In this document: positions 24,500-42,439 of the stretch, piece by piece
Position numbering within the stretch: position 1 is the first letter of the stretch
How the letters are laid out: every line of letters starts with the position of its first letter
From: Streptomyces sp. WZ-12
GTDB lineage: Bacteria > Actinomycetota > Actinomycetes > Streptomycetales > Streptomycetaceae
DNA: 64,000 bases
Assembly: GCF_028898845.1 (NCBI RefSeq)
Contig: NZ_CP118574.1
Span: 1,860,001 to 1,924,000, forward strand
Reading direction: 5' to 3'
The notes under the pieces: generated by a model
The model's database searches: none
What the model was told of the DNA's origin: nothing
The model's input: the letters and a program-made list of their open reading frames with translations, nothing else
Translations under genes and position numbers: made by a program

Positions 24500-25699
24500 T
24501 TACTTCCCGTTCCCCGCCCCGTCGTTGACGCCCGCCAGCCCGTAGACCCGGCGCGCCGTACCCGCCGCGATCATCGCCGCGACCCGCCGGGCGTCCGCCG
24601 CCGACCAGGCCCCGGACGCCACCCAGCCGCCCAACACCTCCCCCAGCGCCACCCGGAACAGCGCGCTGCCCACCGCGTACAGCTCCGGGAGCCCGTAGGC
24701 GTCGGTGGAGAACAACAGCTTCCCGAACGGCGCCAGTTCGAGGAACTCGGCGAGCACGGCGGTGGCCCGCGGGCCGGTGTGCGTCAGCGACAGCCCAACG
24801 TCGGCGTAGACGTGCGGGAAGGCCCCGGCGAGGTAGGCGGCCTGCCGGTGGTACGGGTAGCCGTGCAGCAGCACCAGGTCGGTGCCGGTGTCCGCGGTGG
24901 CCCGGACCAGGTCGGTGAGGAGCGCCGGGTCGGCGTGGTCCAGCCGCAGGTCGGGATCGCCGAAGCCGGTGTGCAGTTGAAGCGGGCGGCCGGTGGCGAC
25001 GGCGAGTTGGACGAGGTGGCGCAGCAGGACCGGATCGGTGAGCCGCGGGGCGCCCGCGCCGAGCCAGGTGCGGACCGCGGTCCGCACCACGTCCGGGCCG
25101 GGCGGCCGGGGGTCCAGGGCGAGGCCGTGCCGGTAGGCGGCCACCGACTTGAAGGCGACGGCGGTGCGGGCCGCGGCGCGCACCGCGCGACCGAGAGCGT
25201 CCACGAACTCCCCGGCGCGCGCGGCCCGTTCACTCCCCCGGTAGTCGGCCGCGACGCGCTCGGCCAGCGCCTCCAGCCGCACCACCTCGTGGCCGGCGCC
25301 ACCGCCCGCGGCCGCGGTCTCGTCCGGCCCGGTGAGGTCGCCGGGCAGCCCGGTGTCGACGAGGTACGCGCCGATGCCGGTGGCGGACAGCAGCCGCCGC
25401 CGGGTCTCGGCCGGGCCCAACTCGCGGCGGCGGGCGAGGTATTCCTCGGGCGGGCAGTGCGCGGGCAGGTCGAGCAGCGGCGGGCACCAACGGCGGACCG
25501 CGAAGCCGGTCTGGGTGTCGAAGTACGTGGTGCCGGCCGCCGGCGGCCGGTCCGACTCGGTGAGGAACGCGGCGAACGTCCCGGCGTCCGGGGCGTACCG
25601 GATCACGCCGTGGCAGTGGTGGTCCACCAGCGGCGGCAGTCCGTCCAGCACCGGGGCGCCGGTGTCGCCGACCGGCCGCGGCGCGTCGGCGGCGCTCAC
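24500..25699 (-). CDS. Amidohydrolase-2 family protein, FluG N-terminal-domain-like
   Basis: A 399-aa TIM-barrel metal-dependent hydrolase. Metal-ligand and active-site segments are DHHCHG (near residue 27), LQLHTGFGDPDL, LLHGYPYHRQ and FSTDAYGLPE, typical of the amidohydrolase partner of glutamine-synthetase-like enzymes (the arrangement fused in fungal FluG). The GTG at 25699 overlaps the TGA of the upstream gene by four bases, so the start is set by coupling rather than by the longer open frame. It probably hydrolyses or decarboxylates a gamma-glutamyl or related product made by its partner (inference). Confidence 0.85.
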   Translation of the reverse strand: MSAADAPRPVGDTGAPVLDGLPPLVDHHCHGVIRYAPDAGTFAAFLTESDRPPAAGTTYFDTQTGFAVRRWCPPLLDLPAHCPPEEYLARRRELGPAETRRRLLSATGIGAYLVDTGLPGDLTGPDETAAAGGGAGHEVVRLEALAERVAADYRGSERAARAGEFVDALGRAVRAAARTAVAFKSVAAYRHGLALDPRPPGPDVVRTAVRTWLGAGAPRLTDPVLLRHLVQLAVATGRPLQLHTGFGDPDLRLDHADPALLTDLVRATADTGTDLVLLHGYPYHRQAAYLAGAFPHVYADVGLSLTHTGPRATAVLAEFLELAPFGKLLFSTDAYGLPELYAVGSALFRVALGEVLGGWVASGAWSAADARRVAAMIAAGTARRVYGLAGVNDGAGNGK

Positions 25700-36388: not shown

Positions 36389-37612
36389 TTACCAGGCCAC
36401 GGGCAGCGAAATCAGGCCACGTGCGCGGATCGTCCGGCGGTGGCGCACTTCGTCCCGGGGGATGTCGAGGCGCAGTCCGGGGAAGCGGCTGATGAGGGCG
36501 TCGATGGCGGTCTCGGCCTCCATGCGGGCGAGCGGGGCGCCGAGGCAGTAGTGGATGCCGTGGCCGAGGGCGAGGTGGCCGGTGGGGTCGCGGGTCGGGT
36601 CGAAGGCGTCGGGGGCGGGGAAGCGGGCCGGGTCGCGGTTGGCGGAGGCGAGGGAGAGCAGGACGCACTCGCCGGCGGGGATGCGGGCGCCGCCGATTTC
36701 GATGTCCTCGACGGGGAAGCGGCGGATGGCGAGGGCGGCGGGTCCGTCGTAGCGGAGGAACTCCTCTACGGTGGCGCTGAGTTCGGCTGGATTTCGGCGC
36801 AACGCCCCGAGCCTCTCGGGGTGGTCGAGGAGGGCGAGGGTGGCGTTGCCGATGAGTTGGACGGTGTTCTCGTAGCCGGCGAAGAGGATGAGGAAGGCGA
36901 GGGAGGTCAGTTCGTCCTCGGTGAGCCGGTCGGTGGCGGCGTCGCCGGGGGTGTGGTCGCGTACCGCGATCAGGTCGGAGAGCAGGTCGTCGCCGGGGGT
37001 GGCGCGCTTGGCGGCGATCAGGTCGGTGTAGAACTCCAGCATCGCGCCGACTGCTTCCTTCCTCGCGTGCGGGCGGCCGGGGTCGGGGGTGAGGAGCGCG
37101 TCCGACCAGGCCAGGAAGTCGCGCCGGTGTGCGGCGGGGATGCCGAGGAGGTCGCAGATGACGGTGATCGGGAGGGGGCCGGCGTAGTCGGTGACGAGTT
37201 CGGCGCGGCCGTTCGCGGCCATGGCGTCCAGCAGTTCGTCGGCGATGCGGCGGACCAGGGCGCGGAGGGCGTCGATGCGGCGCGGGGTGAATGCCTGGGC
37301 GACCAGGCGGCGGATCCGGGTGTGGTCCGGGGGGTCCATGTTGAGCAGGTTGGCGTCGAGGGCGGGCGGCAGGGTGAAGCCGCGGTAACTGCCGGGCGCG
37401 GCATGGCGCTTGTCGAGCGAGAGCCGGGGGTCGGCCAGGGCGCCGCGGACGTCGTCGTAGCGGGTGACCAGCCAGGCGGGCTGACCGTCGGTGCCGGTGA
37501 TGCGGTGCACCGGGCCGGCCTCGCGGAGGGCGGCGCAGGCGGCGTACGGGTCGTCCAGGAGGGGGGTGGTGTCGATCGGGGCGTCGGGGCCGGTCTCGGC
37601 GGTGTTCTGCAT
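36389..37612 (-). CDS. Cytochrome P450
   Basis: A 407-aa soluble bacterial P450. Motifs: I-helix FAGYENTVQLIGN (Asn where Thr is commoner next to the acid residue), the K-helix ExxR in VEEFLRYDG, and the heme-binding LGHGIHYCLGAPLAR with Cys356 as the axial thiolate (the first Phe of the usual FGxGxHxCxG is Leu). It is closest to the CYP105/107-like group. The start at 37612 has no Shine-Dalgarno; TAGGCT nine bases upstream suggests a leaderless mRNA. It lies 125 bases downstream of the MAB_1171c gene in the same direction, so it may belong to that signalling set. Confidence 0.9.
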   Translation of the reverse strand: MQNTAETGPDAPIDTTPLLDDPYAACAALREAGPVHRITGTDGQPAWLVTRYDDVRGALADPRLSLDKRHAAPGSYRGFTLPPALDANLLNMDPPDHTRIRRLVAQAFTPRRIDALRALVRRIADELLDAMAANGRAELVTDYAGPLPITVICDLLGIPAAHRRDFLAWSDALLTPDPGRPHARKEAVGAMLEFYTDLIAAKRATPGDDLLSDLIAVRDHTPGDAATDRLTEDELTSLAFLILFAGYENTVQLIGNATLALLDHPERLGALRRNPAELSATVEEFLRYDGPAALAIRRFPVEDIEIGGARIPAGECVLLSLASANRDPARFPAPDAFDPTRDPTGHLALGHGIHYCLGAPLARMEAETAIDALISRFPGLRLDIPRDEVRHRRTIRARGLISLPVAW

Positions 37613-37737: not shown

Positions 37738-38958
37738 TCAGCGGCGCGGGGTGGCGCTGCGCTGGCGCAGTTCGACGAGCACGGTTTCGATGAGCGGGGA
37801 GCGGTAGACGTCGGCGACGAGCGCCAAGTGTTCGTATTCGGCGGCGAGTTCGGGGCGGTGGTGGGCGGTGGCGACCACCACGCTGTCGGCGCCGTGGACG
37901 GGGACGTGGCCGACCGCGCGGTTCTCCAGGCCGCGGCGCAGGGCGGCGGCCTCGGCGACGGCGGCCAGTTGCCGGTCGTCGAGGGAGACGGCGCGGGCGC
38001 GTTCGAGGACGATGTCGACGGCGTCGGACTCCACGTGGCGACGGATGCCGCGTTGGACGTCGCGGATCTCGGCCATTTGACGGTTGGCGCGCCATTCCAG
38101 GTCGGCGAAGGGCCAACGGCCGGACCACCGGCTTCCGTCCATGGTGACCTCGGGGGTCTGGGCGGTGACGGTGCGCCAGAGGGGTGTGAGGCGGCGCAGT
38201 CGGCGCCAGGCGGCGACGCGGGGGCCGGCGGCGGGCAGGCTGAAGCCGGTCAGGACGAGGAGCGCGGCGACCGAGGCGCTGAGGGGTGCGACGCCGTTGG
38301 AGAGCCAGTGGGCCGGATGTCCGGTCCATGACAGGCTGAAGCCGATGACCTTGCAGGCGCAGTAGACCAGGCCGAGCCAGCAGCCGGCGGCCAGCACCCG
38401 CAGCCCGCGGGCCAACCAGGAGGGCCCGAGCCGGGCGGCGTAGCGGGGGCAGAGGGTGCCCAGGCCGGCGAGGCTGGCGCCGAAGATGGCCAGGTACAGG
38501 ACCAGGAAGACCATCACGCCGGGGGCGTCGGTGTAGGCGGTGCTGAAGTCGCGGGGGTGTTCCACGGCATCGGGGCGGCCGACGGCGAAGCCGGTGACGG
38601 CCACCGCCCACAGGAGCGCCACCGCGCCGACCGTCCGGCGGGCCCTGGTCCGGGCGCCGGCCCGGGCCGCCCCGCCGTCGCCGGCCGTCCAGCGGAGCAG
38701 CAGCACCAGCGCCCCGGCGGCGAAGACCATGACGGAGGAGTACAGGAAGACCATGGCGAGGTTGGCGACGCCGACCAGATGGTCGAAGCCGCGGTAGAGG
38801 CTGGGTGCGGAGAAGAGGAAGACCGTGGCGACGCCGCCGGTCATCACGCAGGCCAGCCCCAGGTCGGTGTTGCTGCGGTCGCGGAACCAGGCGACGGCTT
38901 TGTACGCCACCAGGGCCCAGGCGGCGGCCCCGAAGCAGAGGTAGACGACGTCAAACAC
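37738..38958 (-). CDS. MAB_1171c family putative membrane transporter
   Basis: A 406-aa protein with about seven membrane helices in the first 250 residues (YLCFGAAAWALVAYKAVAWF, DLGLACVMTGGVATVFLFSAPSLY, MVFLYSSVMVFAAGALVLLLRW). A cytoplasmic C-terminal domain with conserved LTPLWRTVTAQTPEV and RRHVESDAV follows. It matches the actinobacterial family found beside XRE and HELSH-protease genes. The function is unknown; a membrane receptor or transporter is likely. The GTG at 38958 overlaps the protease-like stop by eight bases, with GGGGAGAG upstream, so the two are coupled. Confidence 0.85.
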   Translation of the reverse strand: MFDVVYLCFGAAAWALVAYKAVAWFRDRSNTDLGLACVMTGGVATVFLFSAPSLYRGFDHLVGVANLAMVFLYSSVMVFAAGALVLLLRWTAGDGGAARAGARTRARRTVGAVALLWAVAVTGFAVGRPDAVEHPRDFSTAYTDAPGVMVFLVLYLAIFGASLAGLGTLCPRYAARLGPSWLARGLRVLAAGCWLGLVYCACKVIGFSLSWTGHPAHWLSNGVAPLSASVAALLVLTGFSLPAAGPRVAAWRRLRRLTPLWRTVTAQTPEVTMDGSRWSGRWPFADLEWRANRQMAEIRDVQRGIRRHVESDAVDIVLERARAVSLDDRQLAAVAEAAALRRGLENRAVGHVPVHGADSVVVATAHHRPELAAEYEHLALVADVYRSPLIETVLVELRQRSATPRR

Positions 38959-39613
38959 GGCTCTCCCCTTCCCGCGCGGCGGCCTCCCGTTGGCGGCGGA
39001 TGTGTTGGAGCGCGGGACCGAGCGCGGCCGCGACCTCGGCGGCCGGCCCCTCCAGCGGGAGTTCCCGCTCGGCCGCGGAGGGCACCACGTGCTCCATCAG
39101 CAGCGTGCCGAGCACCTCGGTCTCCCGTTCGGTGGGGTTGTCGTAGCCGTGGTGGCGGGCGAAGCCCATCGTCAGACCCATCCGTCGCATCGCGGTGGCG
39201 ACGTCGACGGACGGGGTCCACAGCCGCAGCGCGTCCTCGGTGACGGCCGGGTCCTGGGCGTGGCCGAGGAGGAGGTGGCTGAGTTCGTGCAGCACGATGT
39301 GGGCCTGGTGCCAGGGGGAGGTCTTGAGTTCGTAGAAGACCCAGTAGCCGTCGTCGGTGGTGGCGGTCATTCCGGAGACCACCCCGCCCAGGCCCATCGG
39401 CACGAGGTGGACGGGGCGTTGGACGCGCGCGGCGACGATGTCGCAGATCCCCCGCAGGTCGGTGGAGGCGGGCAGGTGCAGCTCCTTGATGAGCTGCTTG
39501 CACCGCCTGCGCATCTGCCCCACTCGCATGCTCGTCCCGTCCTCGTGTCCGGCCCGCCGCCAGGTGGTGAAGATCCCGTCGCGCTCAGCGGTCGGTGTCG
39601 GGCCGTGCGGCAC
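38951..39613 (-). CDS. HELSH-motif metallopeptidase-like protein (ImmA/IrrE-like toxin-component family)
   Basis: A 220-aa protein with a zinc-protease helix HIVLHELSHLLLGH (HExxH), preceded by an antiparallel pair of strands (VHLVPMGLGGVVSGMTATTDDGYWVFYE). This is the fold of ImmA/IrrE peptidases, which cleave partner repressors. GTG 39613 is chosen because GGGAGGTGA lies just upstream; it overlaps the XRE gene by 29 bases. GTG 39622 and ATG 39529 are less likely. In phage-derived ImmA/ImmR systems the peptidase degrades the adjacent XRE repressor, so the pair here may work the same way (inference). Confidence 0.85.
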   Translation of the reverse strand: MPHGPTPTAERDGIFTTWRRAGHEDGTSMRVGQMRRRCKQLIKELHLPASTDLRGICDIVAARVQRPVHLVPMGLGGVVSGMTATTDDGYWVFYELKTSPWHQAHIVLHELSHLLLGHAQDPAVTEDALRLWTPSVDVATAMRRMGLTMGFARHHGYDNPTERETEVLGTLLMEHVVPSAAERELPLEGPAAEVAAALGPALQHIRRQREAAAREGESRV

Positions 39614-40049
39614 GCCGCTCACCTCCCTGCTCCGGCGGGCCGTCCGGCAGGTTCATCTGCCGGCGGAACTGGGAGATGATCGTCGTCAGGCTGTCCTGGA
39701 CTTCCGGGGGCAGCCCGACCGAGCGCAGCGCGATGGCGCGCACCCGTTGGTCCCGCATGGCGGCGAGGAACCGGACCTCCTCCTCCACCCGCGCGGCCTG
39801 CGGCTGCGAGAGGTCCCCCAGCAGATACCCGACGGGCACCGCGAAGAACTTCGCCAGCGCGCGCAGGAGTTCGGGGCTCGGGTTCGCCCGTCGTCCGTTG
39901 CGCAGCATCGACAGGTACTGCTCGGTGACCCTGACGCCGCCGTACTCCGCCGTCCCGCGGCCGATCTCCTCGGCCACGTGGGCGTTGGTGTACGGGGCGC
40001 CCGGCGGGTGCATGTGCGCGAAAAGGTGGTTGAGCCGTTCCGCGAGCAC
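39585..40049 (-). CDS. XRE-family transcriptional regulator
   Basis: A 154-aa regulator from the GTG at 40049, which has GGGAGGGGAG directly upstream (an ATG at 40091 would add 14 residues). It has a helix-turn-helix in the first 90 residues (LAERLNHLFAHMHPPGAPYTNAHVAEEIG, VTEQYLSMLRNGRRANPSPELLRALAKFFAVPVGYLL) and a C-terminal helical tail (VRAIALRSVGLPPEVQDSL). The family regularly precedes a HELSH protease-like gene in Streptomyces. It overlaps that gene here, so they are co-translated. It probably represses its own operon until the peptidase acts. Confidence 0.85.
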   Translation of the reverse strand: MLAERLNHLFAHMHPPGAPYTNAHVAEEIGRGTAEYGGVRVTEQYLSMLRNGRRANPSPELLRALAKFFAVPVGYLLGDLSQPQAARVEEEVRFLAAMRDQRVRAIALRSVGLPPEVQDSLTTIISQFRRQMNLPDGPPEQGGERRAARPDTDR

Positions 40050-40364
40050 GCTCCCCTCCCCCTTGGACCGGTTGTCCCCTCCCACGGCCATCCCCCCGTC
40101 CGTCCGGCCGGCCCAACGAGCAGTTAAGGCCGCCGAAGCCACCTCCCCATCCTGTCACGCCGGGAACGCGGCGCACCAGTCCACATACGGACAGTGAGGA
40201 ACGCCGGACTTAACCGGGAGTTGAGTGATGAGGCAACGACACTGCGTCGACCTGGGCGGGGCGTACGGCGGGGCGGGGCGGGGCGGCGACCCGGGCCTTC
40301 TGGCGGGCGCGGCAACGGCGTTGGGACGACGGCGGGCGGGGGCCGGGGCCAGGAGAACGCGAAA

Positions 40365-40394: not shown

Positions 40395-40414
40395 CCAACT
40401 CACGTTTCCGTAAG

Positions 40415-40488
<74 letters not shown>

Positions 40489-40619: not shown

Positions 40620-40650
40620 TTGACCTCAAGCCGGCTTGAGGTTGCAAGGT
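40620..40650 (+). promoter_or_regulatory. SoxR-box-like palindrome within the transketolase promoter
   Basis: A perfect 20-bp palindrome (40623-40642) contains CCTCAAG-CCGG-CTTGAGG, matching the half-sites of SoxR boxes. It sits in a 19-bp spacer between TTGACC (40620-40625) and CAAGGT (40645-40650), the long spacing typical of MerR-family activation. The -10 ends seven bases before the ATG at 40658. Confidence 0.75.
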
Positions 40651-40657
40651 CGGTGGC

Positions 40658-41416
40658 ATGACGCACACGGCGACACAACCGGCCCTGGACGCCCCGCTGC
40701 ACGACGCCCGTGGATTCGATGAACTGCCCCGCCTGATGGGGCTGATGACCGGCGACGAGAAGCACGGACCCGCGGCCACCTCCCCCCTCGACGCCCTCTG
40801 GGTCCTCTACGACCGGGTGCTGCGGGTCTCCCCCGCCACCGCCGACGACCCCGACCGGGACCGCTTCCTGCCCTCCAAGGGCCACGGCCCGATGGCCTAC
40901 TACGCGGTGCTGGCCGCCAAGGGCTTCTTCCCCGCCGACTGGCTGCCGGACTTCGGCGCGTACCACTCGCCGCTCGGTCACCACCCGGACCGGGTGCTGG
41001 TGCCCAGCGTCGAGATCGGCAGCGGATCGCTGGGGCACGGGCTGCCGCTGGCCGTCGGCACCGCGCTGGGGCTGCGCGCCCAGGGCCGCACCGGGCCGGC
41101 GGTGTGGGTGCCGCTCGGGGACGCCGAACTCGACGAGGGCAGCAACCACGAGGCGCTCGCCTACGCGGGCGCGGCCGGCCTGGACCGGCTGCACGCCCTG
41201 GTCGTCGACAACTCCTCGGCCGCGCACGGCTGGCGGGGCGGGATCGCCTCCCGCTTCGGGGCCGTGGGCTGGTCCGCGGCGACCGTGGACGGCCGCGACC
41301 ACGAGGTGCTGCACGCGGCGTACCGCGCCCCGCACCCGGGCCGGCCGCACGCGGTGGTCGCCCGCGTCGAACCGAAGAACGCCACCGCCCCCGCGCGGCC
41401 CCGGCGGGCGGCCTGA
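40658..41416 (+). CDS. Transketolase, N-terminal (thiamine-diphosphate-binding) subunit
   Basis: A 252-aa split transketolase half: DRFLPSKGHGPMAYYAVLAAKGFF, EIGSGSLGHGLPLAVGTALGLR and GDAELDEGSNHEA (GDG-type Mg/ThDP motif with Ala for Gly, as in several split enzymes). It pairs with the C-terminal half at 41534. Two-subunit transketolases can serve sugar-phosphate metabolism or transfer ketol units in secondary metabolism. The ATG at 40658 lacks a ribosome site and lies just downstream of a MerR-type promoter, so the message is probably leaderless. The DNA carries a SoxR-box-like palindrome, hinting at redox or quinone control. Confidence 0.9.
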   Translation: MTHTATQPALDAPLHDARGFDELPRLMGLMTGDEKHGPAATSPLDALWVLYDRVLRVSPATADDPDRDRFLPSKGHGPMAYYAVLAAKGFFPADWLPDFGAYHSPLGHHPDRVLVPSVEIGSGSLGHGLPLAVGTALGLRAQGRTGPAVWVPLGDAELDEGSNHEALAYAGAAGLDRLHALVVDNSSAAHGWRGGIASRFGAVGWSAATVDGRDHEVLHAAYRAPHPGRPHAVVARVEPKNATAPARPRRAA

Positions 41417-41533: not shown

Positions 41534-42439
41534 GTGAGGGACACCATGCGGGAGCGGTTCGCCGCGGTCGGTTCGCGACTGCTGGACGAGGACCCGCGGC
41601 TGGCCGTGGTGCTGGCCGACATCGGTGCCGATGGCTTCGCGGACGCGGCCCGGCGGCACCCCGCGCGGGTGCTGAACGTCGGCATCCGGGAGCAGTTGCT
41701 GGTCGGAGTGGGCGGCGGGCTGGCGTTGACCGGTATGCGGCCGATCCTGCACACCTTCGCCAGCTTCCTGGTGGAACGCCCCTTCGAGCAGGTGAAGTTG
41801 GGCTTCGGCCACCAGGGCACGGGTGGGGTGTTGGTGAGCGCCGGCGGCTCCTACGACTGGCCCAGCGGCGGTTTCACGCACATGGCACCGGGCGATGTGG
41901 CGCTGTTGGACACCCTCGACGGCTGGACGGTGCACGTGCCGGGGCACCCCGACGAGGCCGAGGTGCTGCTGCGGAAGGCCGCGGCGGCCGGTGACGACAA
42001 GGTGTACGTGCGACTGTCCGTACAGGTCAACGAGGCTCCGTGGGCCGTGGACGGGGTCGGGTTCGCGACGGTGCGTCAGGGCGGTGGCGGGGTGGTGGTC
42101 GCGGTGGGCCCGATGCTGGACAGCGTGCTGGCCGCCACCGAGGGGTGGGACCTGACCGTGCTCCACGCGACGACCGTGCGGCCCTTCGACGGCCGGGCGC
42201 TGCGGGCCGCCGCGGACGCCGCAGGTTCCGCGGACGTGGTGCTGGTCGAGCCGTATCTCGCCGGTACCTCCACGGGGCACGCCAACGACGCGCTGGCGGA
42301 CCGGCCGCACCGGGTGCTCGGACTCGGCGTCGGCCGCCGGGAGTTGCGCCCCTACGGGCAGCTCGACGAGCACCTGGCGGCACACGGGCTCGACCCTCGG
42401 GGGCTGCGGGACCGGATCGGCGGGTTCCTTCGTCGGTAG
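41534..42439 (+). CDS. Transketolase, C-terminal subunit
   Basis: A 301-aa protein with the pyrimidine-binding domain (LNVGIREQLLVGVGGGLALTGMRPILHTFASFLVERPFEQ, with the cofactor glutamate in GIREQ) and the C-terminal transketolase domain (VVAVGPMLDSVLAA, LHATTVRPFDGRAL, VVLVEPYLAGTS). It completes the active site with the preceding subunit. GTG 41534 has GAGAGGA six bases upstream; ATG 41546 is an alternative with GAGGG. A duplicated 13-bp GACGACCGGCGACT sits in the 117-base gap between the two genes. The pair is a likely operon. Confidence 0.9.
   Translation: MRDTMRERFAAVGSRLLDEDPRLAVVLADIGADGFADAARRHPARVLNVGIREQLLVGVGGGLALTGMRPILHTFASFLVERPFEQVKLGFGHQGTGGVLVSAGGSYDWPSGGFTHMAPGDVALLDTLDGWTVHVPGHPDEAEVLLRKAAAAGDDKVYVRLSVQVNEAPWAVDGVGFATVRQGGGGVVVAVGPMLDSVLAATEGWDLTVLHATTVRPFDGRALRAAADAAGSADVVLVEPYLAGTSTGHANDALADRPHRVLGLGVGRRELRPYGQLDEHLAAHGLDPRGLRDRIGGFLRR

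Follow-up and report, generated by a model that had tools for sequence, protein, structure and literature searches.

Two questions are raised by the DNA immediately upstream of tktN, the first gene of a pair (tktN-tktC) predicted to encode a split transketolase: is the perfect palindrome that lies there a site for SoxR, and, if so, what would a transketolase of this kind do in a SoxR regulon? In antibiotic producers, the role proposed for SoxR regulons is the processing and export of redox-active metabolites. We analysed the gene pair in its window (the whole stretch of 64,000 nucleotides), in its genome and among its relatives. The explanation that we propose – a SoxR-activated promoter, an enzyme that transfers a ketol unit to quinones, and the handover of the promoter from one SoxR paralogue to another – is, taken as a whole, probably correct.

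Table 1. Features of the tktN-tktC locus (positions in the window).
Feature	Position	Strand	Description
tRNA-Pro(GGG)	40414..40488	-	upstream neighbour of tktN
-35-like hexamer TTGACC	40620..40625	+	TTGA precedes the box in 115/118 Streptomyces tktN genes
SoxR-type box CCTCAAG-CCGG-CTTGAGG	40624-40641	none	inside the 40623-40642 palindrome; half-sites (40624-40630 and 40635-40641) identical in the E. coli soxS promoter
-10-like hexamer CAAGGT	40645..40650	+	19-bp spacer; nAnnnT here in 115/115 boxed Streptomyces genes, CAnnnT in 86
tktN, 252 aa	40658..41416	+	Pfam Transketolase_N; predicted thiamine-diphosphate-binding half of the split transketolase
tktC, 301 aa from GTG 41534	41534..42439	+	Transket_pyr; predicted pyrimidine-binding/C-terminal half

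The palindrome reads ACCTCAAGCCGGCTTGAGGT, and the window sequence from 40619 reads CTTGACCTCAAGCCGGCTTGAGGTTGCAAGGTCGGTGGCATGACG. A reading made earlier from the sequence alone had described a palindrome with CCTCAAG/CTTGAGG half-sites placed inside a 19-bp spacer. Palindrome, half-sites and spacing are confirmed, but the box does not lie wholly inside the spacer: its first two bases also form the end of the -35 hexamer. The same overlap is present in E. coli soxS, and box, overlap and spacer together match the soxS geometry, which bears out the earlier assignment of the layout to SoxR-activated promoters. The -10-like hexamer is weak compared to the usual consensus. The ATG of tktN follows 16 nt past the box, and the transcript is likely to start close to it, that is, to be leaderless. 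A box pattern with a 6-base gap gave no match, the true gap being four. The exact 14-base box is expected 0.02 times in the 9.55-Mb genome if its GC content is taken as 72%, and is found twice; perfect 20-bp palindromes of any kind are not rare, 0.46 being expected in the window at its composition and two being seen. The second of these, the only other one found, lies at 25068-25087 (GTGCGGACCGCGGTCCGCAC).

Conservation of the box, which is a stronger test than these expectations, was assessed in three samples, the first two of which overlap: (a) the best 80 tktN loci of at least 536 relatives from named genomes; (b) 199 Streptomyces genomes, 116 of which hold tktN at E <=1e-60 (118 genes, the upstream region of each being taken); and (c) 394 genomes from the class, in 53 of which tktN is present at E <=1e-50, 32 of these lying outside Streptomyces (33 genes). 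TTGA followed by a box with 0-5 mismatches is present at 80/80 loci of sample (a). The TTGA-anchored boxes of sample (b) comprise 18 that are exact, 33 with one mismatch, 42 with two, 11 with three, five with four and six with five; the best box has at most two mismatches in 93/118 of the upstream regions, compared to 0.17% of 2360 base shuffles. Outside the genus, an anchored box with 0-5 mismatches precedes 32/33 genes. In the boxed genes of all three samples (80/80, 115/115 and 32/32) the ATG lies 15 or 16 nt past the box, and in each of them the hexamer 19 bp after TTGAnn reads nAnnnT (CAnnnT in 75, 86 and 13, respectively). For samples (b) and (c) together, 147/151 tktN genes have the box, at a constant spacing from their start codons. 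Four copies are boxless: L256, L257 and L357 are second copies (the last in genome G288), and L254 is a 64% relative.

A scan of the genome (G000) for soxR and for further sites, as the earlier reading had proposed, yielded one SoxR and two exact sites. Only one protein scores above the SoxR cut-off (the TIGR01950 equivalog, 116.9 bits): it reaches 231 bits, the runner-up of the 17 profile matches 48.9. This SoxR is encoded elsewhere in the chromosome (C1:6879572) and carries the CX2CXCX5C pattern, with the cysteine motif CIGCGCLSLSRC. In addition to the two exact copies of CCTCAAG-N4-CTTGAGG there are three sites with one mismatch; with up to two mismatches the count rises to 23, compared to 19 for a reversed control pattern, and thus only the top five stand out. 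Surroundings were inspected for these five and for loci L006 and L007. All five follow a TTGA when read in the direction of a gene; the genes faced are tktN, a SnoaL-like gene, an ABM-domain monooxygenase, a PIG3-like quinone oxidoreductase and an FMN reductase, the last three being, when matched by enzyme kind, of the sorts listed for the S. coelicolor SoxR regulon (PMC4146615). The SnoaL-like gene (L002:982-1485; G000:C1 about 7306414-7306917) has the other exact box 15 bases before its ATG and is a possible SoxR target. At positions 1501-1518 of L006 and L007, the related palindromes CCTCAGG-N4-CCTGAGG and GCTCAAG-N4-CTTGAGC immediately precede MerR-type genes, and are probably those genes' own boxes. 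Binding of SoxR to the tktN box, and activation from it, is in our view very likely.

Concerning the function of the enzyme, the earlier reading had offered two options: pentose-phosphate flux, or ketol transfer in secondary metabolism. The strongest rival to our explanation takes up the first – SoxR controls the pair, but TktN-TktC works as an ordinary transketolase and increases flux through the pentose-phosphate pathway during redox stress – and is, we consider, unlikely, although far from negligible. Supply of reductant would be a plausible stress response, and residues H26, H66, H100, D155, N185, E411 and H473 of E. coli TktA, which we take to be its catalytic thiamine-diphosphate (ThDP) and metal residues, are conserved in 111-113 of the 113 relatives (at the phosphate-site residues R358, D381, S385 and R520 the alignment is too poor for such a reading). 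H461 and D469 of TktA, which we likewise assume to have functional roles, are not kept; the N half is only 34% identical to TktA, and the C half gives no BLAST match to it at E up to 1e-3. Compared to the cut-off of 488 bits for the transketolase equivalog, the halves score 116.2 and 66.6 bits (each covering only part of the model), while a full-length transketolase is already present elsewhere in the genome (467 bits for its N domain) and none of the four genes that accompany tktN behind the five best boxes belongs to the pentose-phosphate pathway.

The pair also has affinities to subunits of the rif-cluster type. TktC is 55% identical to protein P0129, and TktN is 62% identical to the corresponding subunit at locus L410, both being of the rif-cluster type rather than Rif15 of A. 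mediterranei itself; the best solved-structure match of both halves is the Carboxydothermus split transketolase (6yak/6yaj; 116 and 66 bits). The database entry for tktC is shorter than the frame in Table 1 (297 aa, from an ATG at 41546). Locus L410 holds the boxless second copy of G288, near genes for a type II dehydroquinate dehydratase, a flavoprotein like hydroxyphenylpropionate hydroxylase, a LuxR-type regulator and a methyltransferase, a set that presumably resembles one end of the rifamycin cluster. These rifamycin-cluster-like genes (L410:3181-10862) occur in a Micromonospora-type genome that also has a SoxR-linked tktN copy. The closest relatives of the L410 copy are proteins from Micromonospora, Salinispora arenicola (87%), uncultured bacteria and Amycolatopsis. 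The rifamycin-saliniketal cluster of S. arenicola is described as holding a two-subunit transketolase, sare_1272/1273, homologous to rif15 (PMC4551226); P0129 is likely to be sare_1273. Given the rif-type identity and the separate full-length transketolase, the second option fits better than pentose-phosphate flux: ketol transfer to quinones is the best functional reading of TktN-TktC that these comparisons suggest, and a quinone is put forward, tentatively, as the acceptor.

At some loci tktN is accompanied by a regulator of its own. A divergent SoxR-like gene directly precedes tktN, from which the box separates it, at 11/80 named loci (among these 80, the upstream sequence of L044 is too short to judge adjacency) and at 14/33 loci outside Streptomyces, which amounts to 25/113 relatives' loci overall. 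The window has no soxR-like gene divergent from tktN, and a SoxR profile search finds no such paralogue in the genome. Among the 199 Streptomyces genomes, SoxR of the paralogue type (at least 203 bits, the next score being 174) is present in eight, all of which have tktN (chance 0.012). Six of the eight adjoin tktN; the other two, in G154 and G031, are about 106-112 kb off, and neither such a box nor tktN lies within the 9 kb taken around them. The CX2CXCX5C pattern is present in 33/33 paralogues (14 from the class, 11 named and eight from Streptomyces, some genomes perhaps sitting in two samples), and all of them fall into a single clade (100/96) when 78 SoxR-like proteins are placed in one tree, separate from the SoxRs encoded at other places in the genomes. 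In 9 of the 14 class genomes with adjacency the adjacent gene encodes the only SoxR-like protein (E <=1e-25). For the 18 class genomes without adjacency, SoxR is encoded elsewhere in 17; the exception, G234 (470 contigs), has tktN with a two-mismatch box and no SoxR match.

These data bear on a second rival, namely that the box is read by another MerR protein of the genome, not by SoxR. There are candidates among the 17 SoxR-profile matches, boxes of MerR-type regulators overlap in sequence (the L006 and L007 palindromes being examples), odd boxes occur in some relatives whose one SoxR is of the ordinary kind, and G234 has a box and no SoxR. However, the divergent regulators at all 25 loci have the SoxR cluster cysteines (the neighbours having been sought by SoxR queries), the three tkt-adjacent regulators that were scored, out of 33 known, all exceed the SoxR cut-off, at 186.7-190.2 bits, and the window's box is an exact SoxR site common to likely SoxR targets. 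A reader other than SoxR is therefore improbable.

In a quick tree of tktN (115 rows), adjacency of the regulator needs 10 changes, and branches with good support force at least four of these. The window belongs to a group of 19 (SH-aLRT 84, no bootstrap), which includes all 11 named loci with adjacent SoxR. We read this as pointing to an old unit of tktN and divergent SoxR from which the regulator was lost repeatedly, repeated gain and joint transfer being the alternatives. Mere co-occurrence of SoxR and tktN says little, since SoxR-like proteins are nearly universal in Streptomyces (194/199 genomes): tktN is present in 1/5 genomes without such a protein compared to 115/194 with one (p 0.16, or 0.03 if the 78%-complete G079, which has tktN and box yet no SoxR-like protein, is omitted). 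On the S. clavuligerus plasmid, which carries a tktN copy with a CTTCAAG-N4-CTTGAAG box, the expected paralogue is absent within 3 kb. A plasmid soxR (L417:1-3426) stands divergent to genes for DsbA-like, monooxygenase and hydrolase proteins, and may form a further private unit of this sort; on a Rubrobacter plasmid (L418:1-2998), a full-length tkt lies about 1.8 kb from soxR.

A further observation concerns the match between box and regulator. The DNA-binding region of SoxR reads ALHFYE both in E. coli and in the window's genome, while in the tkt-adjacent SoxRs an arginine replaces the histidine, at a position that presumably belongs to the DNA-reading part of the protein. With the His type defined as ALH[FY]YE (its DNA pattern was found in 169/199 Streptomyces genomes), an altered box – T in the second or A in the second-last position – is found, among the 115 boxed genomes, in 10/13 without the His type compared to 6/102 with it (Fisher 2.6e-8), and, after removal of the eight paralogue genomes, in 5/7 compared to 4/100 (2.3e-5); both p values exaggerate the strength of the association, as related genomes are counted separately and there may have been only three or four events. 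Six of the eight paralogue genomes, G036 and G048 among them, have CTTCAAG-N4-CTTGAAG; G154 has one half of it, and the box of G043 is near-canonical. An odd box together with a single Arg-type SoxR in G096, G165 and G105 fits the covariation; G010, G045, G047 and G184, with odd boxes despite a His-type SoxR and no tkt-type paralogue, do not. In G047 and G184, where the tkt boxes are odd, a second, Arg-type SoxR lies beside an alpha/beta-hydrolase-like gene (L269, L275). The window combines a His-type SoxR with a canonical box, and we lean towards the view that its tktN promoter was handed over from a lost paralogue to the ordinary SoxR.

The same history could have left the box a relic, its paralogue user lost and the promoter unresponsive, as the paralogue is absent here and the tktN tree groups the window with relatives that have it; yet decay would then be expected, whereas the box is perfect and fits the remaining SoxR rather than the CTTCAAG-N4-CTTGAAG usual for the paralogue, which makes this very improbable. 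That the palindrome is due to chance or is a terminator, for which the background expectation given above for the palindrome alone leaves room, can be dismissed given its conservation at a constant spacing from the tktN start. The proposal, first made from the sequence, that a SoxR-family protein controls this two-subunit transketolase is well supported by sequence comparison: by the box, its geometry, the single SoxR, conservation, the divergent paralogues and covariation.

Neighbouring genes proved less informative. Across 81 loci (filtered for open reading frames) only tktN (74/81) and tktC (66/81) are widespread and on one strand; the next neighbour clusters, at 42, 32 and 22 loci, are YjbR-, LysR- and MFS-like by eye and lie on the opposite strand, and shared neighbours were for this reason dropped as a clue to function. 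No rif-type genes were seen beside tktN-tktC in the window, and the pair is thus not located in a rifamycin cluster. Three genes separate tktN from a P450 gene on the minus strand (36389-37612), 3.0 kb upstream, and a similar P450 frame is found near tktN at 8/80 named loci (by eye); Rif15, the transketolase of rifamycin biosynthesis, works with a P450, Rif16. The stretch 37738-40142, also on the minus strand, encodes in a row an HTH protein, a HELSH-containing protein (metallopeptidase-like, by eye) and a putative transporter of the MAB_1171c family; genes like this trio recur at 5-7 of the 81 loci.

Taken together, our explanation runs as follows. SoxR, whose gene lies at a distant place in the chromosome, would in its oxidised [2Fe-2S] form bind the box between -35 and -10, where a spacing of 19 bp is presumed too long for unaided initiation, and would distort the DNA; in the presence of redox-active quinones a probably leaderless tktN-tktC transcript would then start. 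TktN and TktC would form a thiamine-diphosphate enzyme of the Rif15 family, whose best candidate reaction is the transfer of a two-carbon ketol, donated by a ketose phosphate, to the carbonyl of a quinone; this may mask or remove the inducing quinone. The ancestral gene pair would have had its own divergent SoxR paralogue, lost in the lineage of the window, where the ordinary SoxR now appears to read a box that has become canonical. A broader and distinctly more doubtful possibility is that of an ancient actinomycete module, in which a dedicated SoxR paralogue governs a quinone ketol-transferase that carboligates quinones out of harm's way: Rif15-type tailoring enzymes may have been drawn from it, and in lineages like that of the window the private SoxR may have been lost, the general SoxR taking over and the box drifting to fit. 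The Rif15 family includes an enzyme whose action on an oxidised naphthoquinone has been demonstrated; with a member of it kept under SoxR-type promoters in many genera of the class, the threat that SoxR counters could be tested directly. The box variants, paired with SoxR variants, offer a natural series for a MerR-family regulator and its site changing together, and for the passage of a gene from one paralogue to another.

How does this locus compare to known systems? The E. coli soxS promoter (CCTCAAGTTAACTTGAGG, with TTTACC, TATACT and 19 bp between them) shares half-sites, -35 overlap and spacer with the window. A divergent soxR-like gene, as in the E. coli soxR-soxS arrangement, is also present at 25/113 relatives' loci, whereas in the window's genome soxR lies elsewhere; and the E. 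coli target is a second regulator, that of the window an enzyme pair. With the S. coelicolor regulon the window's genome shares box, kind of regulator and, in three other boxed genes, kinds of enzyme. The sequence-only reading held that the known streptomycete regulon is without a transketolase. This holds for the six genes given for S. coelicolor in PMC4146615, but a footnote to Table 4 of the same paper, published in 2014, notes a predicted, conserved SoxR site for SAV_1623, a putative S. avermitilis transketolase, which is matched to tktN here by its description. A search of the open-access literature returned no further work on SAV_1623, and among the papers listed that one alone tied SoxR, by its terms and passages, to a streptomycete transketolase.

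Rif15, the two-subunit transketolase of late rifamycin steps, was shown to transfer a C2 keto unit, supplied by ketose phosphates, to rifamycin S but not to reduced rifamycin S (PMC6002545), and plumbagin and benzoquinone are reported to activate S. coelicolor SoxR (PMC5288332). If both are set side by side, SoxR would switch on an enzyme that acts on compounds of the kind it senses. The likeness to Rif15 lies in the split enzyme and in the 55-62% identity of tktC and tktN to rif-cluster-type subunits; the difference is that tktN-tktC has a SoxR-type promoter and no rif genes around it, while the rif-type copy of G288 is boxless. FasB and FasC of Rhodococcus fascians pFiD188 are 53-54% identical to both halves of the window's enzyme, and their place in a cytokinin locus implies that the chemistry of the family need not be quinone transfer. 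The FasB-type gene, annotated as ferredoxin, has an N-terminal addition and as neighbours a P450 and fas4; no box is present in the stretch examined, which starts 179 bp before the gene. The two fas-locus genes of the split-transketolase family (L414:3779-5638) lie beside a P450, like Rif15 with Rif16. The Carboxydothermus enzyme shares the split chain, at lower similarity. Within the literature searched, conservation across many genera, the clade of tkt-adjacent SoxRs, the covariation of box and regulator, and the assignment to the rif-type family appear to be new. SoxR-controlled quinone-response genes are already known, and the locus is a variant on them: an unusual enzyme with its own lineage of regulator.
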